Source of the DNA: a virus
Reading direction: 5' to 3' (one strand)
Length of the DNA stretch: 57,702 nucleotides
Virus record (IMG/VR): IMGVR_UViG_3300028802_000206
Location: 1-57,702 of that record
Positions 24,011-27,104 of the stretch are shown here, piece by piece; position 1 is the stretch's first letter, and the number at the start of each line of letters is the position of its first letter. A program made the position numbers and the translations under genes. The notes under the pieces were generated by a model. That model was not told where the DNA came from, ran no database searches, and saw only the letters and a program-made list of their open reading frames with translations.

Positions 24011-24712
24011 TTACCGAGAGAGCATTGCCACGCCGTCATCGAGCGTGACCTTCTGAAAACAGCGAATTGCCGATGTCGGACAGGCATTCGCAATGTGAAC
24101 GCCACGCTTGTTGAGGTGCGGGACGTAGACTTCGAAGTGGCTCGCCCAGACCTTCCAGTTCTCGTGGTTCTGTGCCCGCTTCTTGTCGTGCTGCTGGTTG
24201 TCTTGAAAGGAACCGTCATAGTCGTAGCCGAACAAGATTATGTGCTTGGCCTGCTTGTGCAGGCAGATTTGCAGCGCACCGAACCCGCTGGTGCCGCCGC
24301 CATAGATCGCGCTTGGATCTTCAGACACCGCCTGACCCACCAGCCGCTTGACGAAGGTGACGTTGCGCGATGGCGGCGGACCAGTCTTGGCGAGCTGGTC
24401 CTCGGGAACCGCCCAGTAGACACGCGCCGGCACGTCGGCGAGCTTGTCGCGCCATTCGGCATAGCGCTCTATATCGAGACCGAACCCTGCGTCCGCCCAT
24501 GGGATGTCGAAGATCGACCCCTTGACCGCAAGGATGGTCGCGCCCCGCAGGCGCTCGAAATCAAAACCGATGAGTGAATGCCCGCCGGCGACGATGGCAA
24601 CCGGTTGCTTGTCCCAGTACGGCGATCCCACCTTGCCGTAGGCATCACCCGCGTCAAAGTCCGCATCTGGCGGTGCCGTGACCATGCGCCGGTTGACTCG
24701 TCCTGTCGTCAT
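24011..24712 (-). CDS. Rossmann-like protein of the sugar cassette (DUF115-like)
   Basis: I prefer the ATG at 24712 (MTTGRVNRRMVTAPPD, 233 residues), preceded by GAGGCGG; 24724 is possible. Features: VAIVAGGHSLIGFDFERLRG, ILAVKGSIFDIPWADAGFG and HIILFGYDYDG. This nucleotide-binding-like layout resembles DUF115/motility-accessory-factor and phage sugar-related proteins, but the identity is not certain. It is followed by the glycosyltransferase-like gene after 17 bases. Confidence 0.5.
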   Translation of the reverse strand: MTTGRVNRRMVTAPPDADFDAGDAYGKVGSPYWDKQPVAIVAGGHSLIGFDFERLRGATILAVKGSIFDIPWADAGFGLDIERYAEWRDKLADVPARVYWAVPEDQLAKTGPPPSRNVTFVKRLVGQAVSEDPSAIYGGGTSGFGALQICLHKQAKHIILFGYDYDGSFQDNQQHDKKRAQNHENWKVWASHFEVYVPHLNKRGVHIANACPTSAIRCFQKVTLDDGVAMLSR

Positions 24713-24728
24713 CGTCCGCCTCATTGAA

Positions 24729-24755
24729 GGTGGCGCGCACCGGATGCGCGCCACC
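24729..24755 (-). terminator. Strong hairpin between sheath and sugar cassette
   Basis: Perfect 11-bp arms GGTGGCGCGCA (24729-24739) and TGCGCGCCACC (24745-24755) with a 5-base loop, 8 bases after the sheath stop. No T run follows on the minus strand, so attenuation or mRNA 3'-end protection of the abundant sheath message is as likely as termination. Confidence 0.6.
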
Positions 24756-24763
24756 TCTGCCTG

Positions 24764-26553
24764 TTAGACTGCAATTGCGGTGTCGACTCCTCTATCATAT
24801 TGTAAACGGAATTGTGCCAGAACCGCGAAGATGCGGAGCTGATTGATCAGGTCGGGCGGGTACAGCACATCGATCCGGTTTGCATCGTTGGCGTTGCGTT
24901 CCACGATCAGGTTCTTCTTGAAGGCCTGCGCGTTCTCGACCCGGCCCAGGAACTCGTCGGCCCGGTACTGCGCGACCAGCTCCGCCTTGATGATCTTCGG
25001 CGTCACGATGGCTTGCCCCGCCCCGAACCGCGTGCCGTCGTCCGCCAGCTTGTGACGCGGGTATTTGCTGGTGATTGCGTGCCGCTGCGAACGGAACAGC
25101 GCCGCCAGCGTGGCCAGCGTCGGTACGAGTTCGTAGGCGTCGTCACCCTGGCCGTAGAGGTTCTTCTGGTAGGTGGTGCTCTCCCGCATGATCGCCGGGA
25201 TGCCGTCGTCGTTGACCGACTGGGTGGCTATTCCGACGCCCGCAAGCTGGTTGCACTGCGCCTTGGTGAAGCGCTGATGCTTCGGCGCGGGCAGGCAGCC
25301 CTCCATCGCCAGCGTCTGGAGCGGTCGCGCCGGGTCGTTGAGCAGCGCGCGAGCGGCCTTGGCCGCGTAGGCCGCGGCCCAGTTCCATGAGGGTGTCGGC
25401 GAGCTGTCCTCCACCCCCATGATCGAAAGCACGCCGCTATTGTTGTTTGGGCCGTACTCGATCAGCGTCGTCAGATCGCTCTTGTAGGCGCCGAACACAT
25501 GCCCGTAGAGCTGCCGCATCCAACCCCAGCGACCAGTGTCGGAGAAGCCATATTCGGCCTCCAACTGCATCAGCGAGGTGCTGTCGGAGAAACCGGTGGC
25601 GACATACTCGTAGATCTCATCGCCCAGGTTGACGATTGCCTGCGTGAGATCAACGGTGCCGGTTCCGCCCGCCAGCTTGTTGTCGACGGGCATCGTGATG
25701 GTGAGGCCGATCGGCACGCGCTCCGCTGCGAGCGCCCCGCCATAGGCCAGCCGCACGTCGATCTCGTTGCCCTCCACGCCCTTCCACTTCGCGGTCAGCG
25801 TGATGTCGGGACTGTCGGCCGGCGTCGTGGTCGCGATCACCGGCATCGACGGGTCCTTGTTGATGGCGGCGGCGATCTTGCCGCCGACAACGGCGATAGC
25901 CTCACCGGCCGCGATGCTGACCTGCACTCGGCGTCCCGCGATGTAGACCGGCAGCGTGCCTGCGGCGGTCGCTGGTGCCGTCACCGTCATGGTCGCGGTG
26001 GCGGCAACACCAGCCGTCGCCTCCGCGATTGGCATGACCCACAACTCCTGCGCAAAGTTGTTGCGCGTGAAGGCTTCCACCATGCCGTCGAGCATCGAGC
26101 CGTAGCCGAACAGCAGGCGGGCGTCGGCCTGCGAAGGCACCGGCACGGGCACGTTGGGAATGGCGGTGCCGTCAGCGATCATGGTGCCGATGATGAGCGA
26201 GGTCAGCCGCGAGCGCGGATAACCGGCCATGCTCGAATCCACTTCGACCCAATATAGCGGCCCTTTCCTTCGCAGCGAGGCGCGACGCTCGCTGCCGCCT
26301 TGCGGCTGCTGCATGTTCCCATGCAGAGGAGACTATCTCATCACCCTTTTCAGGGGCCGGGGGCTTCGGGCCGCTTGGCCCTACGATCTTGCGATCTAGT
26401 CGTTACACCTTCCGCATCGCTGCGGCTTGGCTCGGTGTTGTCCGTCCTGGATGTTCACCGAATTCACCCGGTTGTTCAATGCCGATTGCTCGGCAAGGGG
26501 ACCATCTACTTAATCCGCCAATTTGCAGGAATGGATGAGAAACTCACGGGCAT
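24764..26553 (-). CDS. Tail sheath protein (Mu gpL-like), interrupted by a group I intron
   Basis: The coding sequence is split: exon 1 is 26553-26512 (14 codons, MPVSFSSIPANWRI) and exon 2 is 26266-24764 (500 residues, beginning KGPLYWVEVDSSMAGYPRSR). Joined, the N-terminus reads like the conserved start of Mu L-type sheaths (SFxxIPxxxR, then P-x-Y-x-E-x-D-x-S). Total 514 residues. Exon 1 has a good ribosome-binding site (AAGGAG). The long unspliced frame to 26314 is simply intron sequence. Later regions fit sheath proteins (GFSDSTSLMQLEAEYGF; ERNANDANRIDVLYPPDLIN). The sheath contracts to drive the tube into the cell. Confidence 0.88.
26267..26511 (-). ncRNA. Group I intron in the tail sheath gene
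   Basis: 245 nt lacking its own ORF. Exon 1 ends in GGATT (26516-26512), which pairs with intron GGTCC (26503-26499) to form P1 with a terminal U-G pair at the splice site; the intron ends in G before exon 2 (AAAGGGCCG). P7 is formed by GACTA (26401-26397) and TAGTC (26335-26331) in the typical ACGACTAGA and GATGAGATAGTC contexts. A GAATTCGGTGAAC segment resembles the P4-proximal core. Splicing restores the sheath frame. Confidence 0.85.
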
Positions 26554-27104
26554 GGCCGGTTCTCCTTCTTGGTCCGGGGTGTCGCGGCGAAAGCCGCTCT
26601 TACAGCTTCTGCTGTCTTCTGACGCTCGCCCGCCCGGGCATATCTCAGCTTTGTCGCTTCACTTATCGCAGCACGATGCGCAGCAGATTTCGGTACGCCT
26701 CTTGTCGATGCACTATGCTTTGCGCGGGAGGCGTCCGACTGCCGTTTGCCAGTCTGCGCGCGTGACAACTTATCTCGCCACGTAATCTCGCGGCCCTTCA
26801 GTGCTGCGCTTACCTTCGCGCGCGCTTCATCCGAATACGTATAGCCAAGCGTGCGGCCCTGGTTTGGGCCGCCCTTCGTCTTATTCCATCCGATGCCATG
26901 CTGCGGACGCAGCTCCTGCTCGAGCGCAAAGCATTCCTCATCGCTCCCGCTCAGCAGGATCGTGTACTTGAACGGCGGAAACTGCCAGGAACAGCGGTGC
27001 TCCTTCAGCCGGTTAATGAACCGCGCAGAGATGCCGACGTAGCCGTGCAAGCGCGGGCACACGCAGTGATTATCGAACAGCCAATAGACCACGGTCTCGC
27101 TCAT
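26544..27104 (-). CDS. GIY-YIG homing endonuclease with NUMOD3 repeats
   Basis: 186 residues. The N-terminal catalytic module has the GIY-YIG pattern as VVYWLFDN ... GYVGISARFINRLKEHR, with a conserved Glu later (ALEQELRPQHGIGWNKTKGG). The rest has NUMOD3-type DNA-binding motifs (GYTYSDEARAKVSAALKGRE; KHSASTRGVPKSAAHRAAIS). The start overlaps the upstream stop (ATGA) and the last 10 bases overlap the start of sheath exon 1. It is thus free-standing, 32 bp upstream of the intron insertion site, and is the probable mobility partner of the ORF-less intron. Confidence 0.88.
   Translation of the reverse strand: MSETVVYWLFDNHCVCPRLHGYVGISARFINRLKEHRCSWQFPPFKYTILLSGSDEECFALEQELRPQHGIGWNKTKGGPNQGRTLGYTYSDEARAKVSAALKGREITWRDKLSRAQTGKRQSDASRAKHSASTRGVPKSAAHRAAISEATKLRYARAGERQKTAEAVRAAFAATPRTKKENRPCP

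Follow-up and report, generated by a model that had tools for sequence, protein, structure and literature searches.

The window analysed here, a 57.7-kb virus record taken at its full length, carries the genome of a soil phage with a Mu-like contractile-tail module; the relatives of its tail sheath gene include those of Bradyrhizobium prophages. On the minus strand, an upstream phage gene is followed by a GIY-YIG-type gene, sheath exon 1, an intron and sheath exon 2 (Table 1). Read unspliced, the sheath frame runs into a stop after 15 codons because of the intron. A preliminary description of this locus had correctly placed the GIY-YIG gene immediately upstream of the intron-bearing gene, with its end inside exon 1; the stop codon is 31 nt from the intron. 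Between the sheath and tube genes (nt 24011–24754) lies a gene matching the PHROG alpha-2,3-sialyltransferase, which is present in most relatives at a variable distance.

Table 1. Features of the sheath locus (coordinates of the window)
Feature	Position (nt)	Strand	Details
Sheath exon 1	26513–26553	−	41 nt, MPVSFSSIPANWR plus bases 1–2 of the M codon; N-terminus contiguous in >50 intronless relatives
ORF-less group I intron	26262–26512	−	251 nt, ends ...AAAGG with terminal G; RF00028, 58.9 bits; 251-nt gap versus L002
P1 exon side, GGAU	26513–26516	−	U at 5' splice site; predicted four pairs with guide GUCC, U.G at splice site
Internal guide sequence GUCC, P1 intron side	26499–26502	−	
P3 5' strand, CCGGG	26467–26471	−	Covariation with partner, 44 introns, 100% paired
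P7 5' strand, GACUA (guanosine-binding helix)	26397–26401	−	Covariation, 44 introns
P3 3' strand, CCCGG	26357–26361	−	Covariation, 44 introns
P7 3' strand, UAGUC	26331–26335	−	Covariation, 44 introns
Sheath exon 2 (encodes the tail sheath protein; begins with base 3 of the M codon)	24764–26261	−	Pfam PF04984/PF17481/PF17482; PHROG 165, E = 2e-159
Putative free-standing homing endonuclease gene, GIY-YIG motif and NUMOD3, 186 aa	26544–27104	−	Stop codon inside sheath exon 1; NUMOD3, PHROG 314, motif residues
Upstream phage gene	27101–27724	−	Overlaps endonuclease start codon; 86% identical in L002

The group I intron and its ends

The covariance-model scan proposed in the preliminary description returned RF00028 as the sole RNA family match within the window (nt 26309–26522, minus strand; 58.9 bits, E-value 1.9e-12, curated cut-off 50 bits). 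A family-specific model, of which the window intron is one of the 44 seed sequences, scored it at 161 bits, and the group I intron proposed for the sheath gene is confirmed by these scores. It contains no ORF, as had been stated. It is a member of a large family of ORF-less phage introns; its core pattern matched at least 119 contigs and a longer pattern 39.

An alignment of 44 cores has 98.8% of its pair cells paired, with 262 double-change cells observed versus 71 in shuffles. P3 and the P7 pseudoknot are 100% paired in the 44 introns, with double changes; in P7, the GACTA/TAGTC pairing already recognised in the window, these fall at two pairs. The P1 helix likewise stands, as GGAU/GUCC. Two extra helices lie between P7 and P3, an arrangement typical of subgroup IA.

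The ends were placed by comparison with 67 sheath relatives, nearly all of which carry MPVSFNSIPANWRMPLYWVEVD or a variant of it unbroken. Since intronless relatives read through the junction (...TGGCGGATGCCGCTATATTGGGTC...) and the alignment to L002 leaves a gap of exactly 251 nt, the intron extends from nt 26512 to nt 26262, with the junction CGGAU/.../GCCG (slashes mark splice sites). The T before the intron and the terminal G reported earlier are retained, while the length of 245 nt is revised to 251 nt. Exon 2 had been read from KGPLYW (WRI-KGPLYW), which is off by 6 nt; intronless relatives give WRMPLYW. Splicing would restore the M codon, and with it WRMPLYW, to give MPVSFSSIPANWRMPLYWVEVD...; the ligated RNA is predicted to read ...GGCGGAU/GCCGCUAU... 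at the junction. A 516-aa ORF beginning in the intron (nt 26314) was considered as an alternative sheath start and rejected as an accident of reading, because the intron of L059 does not keep this frame open.

The neighbouring endonuclease

The 186-aa protein encoded upstream of exon 1 contains NUMOD3 above the cut-off and matches PHROG 314 (homing endonuclease, 4e-12). The GIY-YIG motif residues Y7, Y22, R32, H36, E62 and N74 occur in canonical order and are invariant or conserved to at least 90% in 36 relatives. A Pfam search of the window protein gave no match to PF01541; among the relatives, L094 scored above the cut-off for this family (23.7 versus 22.6), and L251 and L136 scored below it. 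The structure model shows a beta-beta-alpha-beta-alpha order. Foldseek searches for a GIY-YIG structure with the full model and with the N-terminal domain matched no entry, and a PDB profile search with the window enzyme returned no GIY-YIG match. The family assignment rests on sequence, because the structure searches were empty and the PF01541 cut-off was reached only in L094; by this assignment, the neighbour is classed as an intact, free-standing GIY-YIG-type homing endonuclease.

Exact peptide patterns recovered only one weak locus as a close relative of the enzyme, and alignment was therefore used. Relatives were searched by motif, blind to introns, although six alignment seeds were intron-linked. 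Almost all of them either flank a sheath gene on its 5' side, in both orientations, or occupy the sheath/tube junction, and approximately 80% of the loci carry no intron. The endonuclease tree tracks the slot occupied (7 changes versus 23.4 when shuffled), intron presence on the same tree takes 9 changes over 10 positives, and the nearest relatives of the window enzyme (L202, L204 and L205) are intronless.

Divergence and introns at the sheath 5' end

An empty site is seen in L002, whose sheath protein is 96% identical to that of the window. It has neither intron nor endonuclease, and an uninterrupted sheath gene comes directly after its upstream gene. Identity between the two is ~95% away from the inserts, drops to 73% at the junction and is regained within ~500 nt in both directions, a trough around both inserts as after homing. 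A wider comparison used 12 pairs of phages with and without the endonuclease (GIY+/GIY−) and 34 GIY−/GIY− pairs, with background identities of 0.908 and 0.899, respectively; only five GIY+ sequences contribute to the former. Identity was 0.779 versus 0.901 over sheath nt 1–35, 0.753 versus 0.882 over nt 36–66 and 0.833 versus 0.889 over nt 67–105, and about equal beyond. The divergence over nt 1–105 is significant (permutation p = 0.0012) and persists when the window is excluded, whereas nt 106–210 show no significant difference between the two kinds of pairs (permutation p = 0.21). Such divergence is predicted by co-conversion and by target escape alike. It is also present in intronless GIY+ phages, and is therefore a sign that the endonuclease has homed, but not necessarily that the intron has.

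Related ORF-less introns have entered the sheath gene at six points spanning 27 nt (nt 36–63), inside the stretch that is diverged in GIY+ phages. They follow nt 36 in L254 (window-frame numbering; nt 39 in its own gene), nt 41 in the window and L130, nt 47 (site D47) in L088, L109 and L194, nt 49 in L255, nt 56 in L059, L094 and L211, and nt 63 in L136. No sheath intron was found outside nt 36–63 of the ~1500-nt gene. Each internal guide pairs with its own local exon, leaving U.G at the splice site, and in 8 of 11 cases no second site ending in U within the part of the spliced exons that was checked would suit it; the window guide could also pair at nt 56, via G.U. The intron tree, built on a short alignment with modest support values, does not allow all sheath introns to share a single origin (p-AU 0.0235). 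It also rejects the local sliding of one sheath intron between sites, except that the three D47 introns form one clade. The closest neighbours of the window intron in the tree are introns of another gene (88%).

Longer sheath genes in L056/L057 and L064 were considered as carriers of introns elsewhere and rejected. In L056 the sheath protein is extended in frame by roughly 80 codons close to its start (L056:1634–2120), an insert that close relatives lack, and in L064 the C-terminal stretch of the sheath is duplicated behind the stop codon (L064:1700–2300). In L254 (4000–4130), exon 2 is apparently frameshifted just past the intron (WVSRRFHG, where WVEVD is expected), by sequencing error or decay. 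Introns of the family can also be crowded: one short tube gene of L199 (3535–3941) holds two group I introns with cores ~110 nt apart, and three same-family introns occur in less than 2 kb in L081 (580–1345) and L121 (1808–3475).

The co-occurrence of introns and endonucleases was counted in several ways. Introns were present in 5 of 33 non-seed GIY loci versus 0 of 116 GIY-less sheath loci with enough flanking sequence (p = 4e-4). When sheath introns were found by intron sequence alone, with the window excluded, an intact GIY gene adjoined 4 of 7, versus 10 of 126 intronless loci (p = 0.002). If the count is limited to intact genes on the 5' side, 2 of these 7 have the enzyme and the excess is not significant (p = 0.12); with the L130 remnant added the count is 3 of 7 (p = 0.02). 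Among loci ascertained by the sheath gene the association is weak, with introns in 1 of 12 with the enzyme versus 0 of 137 without (Fisher p = 0.08). The intron is absent from nearly all close relatives sharing the window sheath gene, and the only matches in a genome collection, two Bradyrhizobium prophages, are both intronless.

A similar association is seen in the tube gene, where the enzyme immediately precedes the intron-bearing gene in all three cases of a MAQRIAG-site intron with intact neighbours (L092, L155 and L251), and a remnant of it is present in the fourth; tube introns at deeper positions were not found to have this enzyme next to them. L130 has ORF-less introns in both genes, the sheath intron being at the window's site, each preceded by an adjoining GIY-YIG remnant with an internal deletion (L130:2100–2560 and L130:3850–4420). 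In L005, which has no intron, the C-terminal portion of an enzyme like that of the window (64% identical) is retained.

Probable collaborative homing and its alternatives

The likeliest reading of the locus, to which we give a probability of about 0.7, is collaborative homing, as defined by F-CphI and psbA (PMC6083498) and reviewed in PMC3984707. The free-standing endonuclease, whose gene separates the upstream gene from the sheath gene, would cut the sheath 5' end in co-infecting phages without it, and repair from the window genome would copy the endonuclease gene, the flanking exon and the ORF-less intron into the recipient. By interrupting the target, the intron would protect the carrier's own sheath gene, and it would remove itself by self-splicing to give the uninterrupted sheath sequence. 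Collaborative homing had already been suggested in the preliminary description, and it agrees with the empty L002 site, the identity trough, sheath 5' divergence only in endonuclease-bearing phages and the repeated association of ORF-less introns with one endonuclease clade. The accompanying proposal, that the locus is an intermediate on the way to an intron with its own endonuclease gene, finds no support: no ORF or visible remnant of one occurs in any sheath intron found, and the later stages (L130 and intronless L005) are those of endonuclease gene decay.

The present data favour an order in which the enzyme came first and the intron later. The endonuclease would have been established in this phage group, and introns from a common pool would then have colonised the target stretch several times. 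More tentatively, and with less than even odds, the endonuclease break itself may act as a landing pad, at which ORF-less introns of the shared pool are captured repeatedly at slightly different points, with only those whose guides fit the local exon surviving. If so, collaborative homing would start from intronless homing and not from the loss of an intron-encoded enzyme.

Intron and endonuclease might instead invade tail genes as independent hitchhikers, the enzyme homing alone and the intron arriving by reverse splicing or through a past enzyme of its own. The large intronless share of endonuclease loci is in line with this, as are the many introns of the window family that lie in other genes and lack this enzyme, and the D47 sheath intron of L088, beside which no endonuclease was found. 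Separate invasion is nevertheless unlikely given the absence of introns from GIY-less sheath loci, the confinement of all sheath introns to the 27-nt stretch diverged in GIY+ phages, and the pairing of intron and enzyme at the MAQRIAG site but not deeper in the tube gene. An alternative raised for ICP1 (PMC10448857) is turnover, in which the intron's own endonuclease was purged and a new free-standing one acquired later. HNH-like reading frames do precede the core in other introns that match its pattern, so ORF-bearing relatives exist. The sheath introns carry no trace of such a frame, though, the remnants in L130 and L005 belong to the free-standing gene outside the intron, and same-slot enzyme lineages are mostly intronless, which together make turnover improbable here. 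Least credible of all is a domesticated arrangement, with the intron kept to regulate sheath expression and the nuclease nearby incidental. Splicing would indeed gate expression, since the sheath frame is stopped so early, but nearly all close relatives that share this sheath gene lack the intron, and sites and introns turn over.

The arrangement at the sheath gene has several known counterparts. In cyanophage S-PM2, F-CphI cuts intronless psbA and a group I intron blocks self-cleavage (PMC6083498); as in the window, a free-standing endonuclease gene adjoins the intron-bearing gene. F-CphI has an EndoVII motif and its cleavage has been shown, whereas the window enzyme is a GIY-YIG-type protein with a predicted activity, and several intron sites fall in one target. 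ICP1 terL is similar in that a free-standing GIY-YIG-related nuclease (the T5orf172 gene) lies beside a spliced essential phage gene; splicing was demonstrated by RT-PCR in ICP1, while the comparison made here is broader, covering sheath and tube genes and enzyme-only relatives (PMC10448857). T4 mobE, as cited in PMC3984707, is a free-standing enzyme that promotes homing of the I-TevIII intron in trans; by that citation the intron holds a defunct endonuclease, unlike the compact, ORF-less intron of the window. The Seg-like GIY-YIG enzymes of T4-like phages, which mediate intronless homing, are also free-standing and NUMOD3-bearing, and cultured-phage matches of the window enzyme (<40% identity) are annotated as homing endonuclease or Seg-like. 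The window enzyme family differs in being fixed to sheath/tube flanks, where it is sometimes joined by an intron of the neighbouring gene.

One gene end displays every stage: the empty site (L002), the enzyme only (L202, L219 and L264), enzyme with intron at several positions (the window, L059, L211, L136 and L254), intron with decayed enzyme (L130) and decayed enzyme with no intron (L005). A single target and a single set of enzymes would therefore suffice to test the order of events. In L109, which has a D47 sheath intron, an HNH gene stands in place of the GIY-YIG enzyme; this antisense endonuclease gene (phrog_374) lies between intron-bearing sheath and tube genes (L109:5377–8290). In L129 (1081–2150), a free-standing EndoVII/HNH-like gene (phrog_1035) directly precedes an intron-bearing tube gene, possibly a second kind of collaborative pair, and the two cases suggest that nucleases of other families may fill this role.
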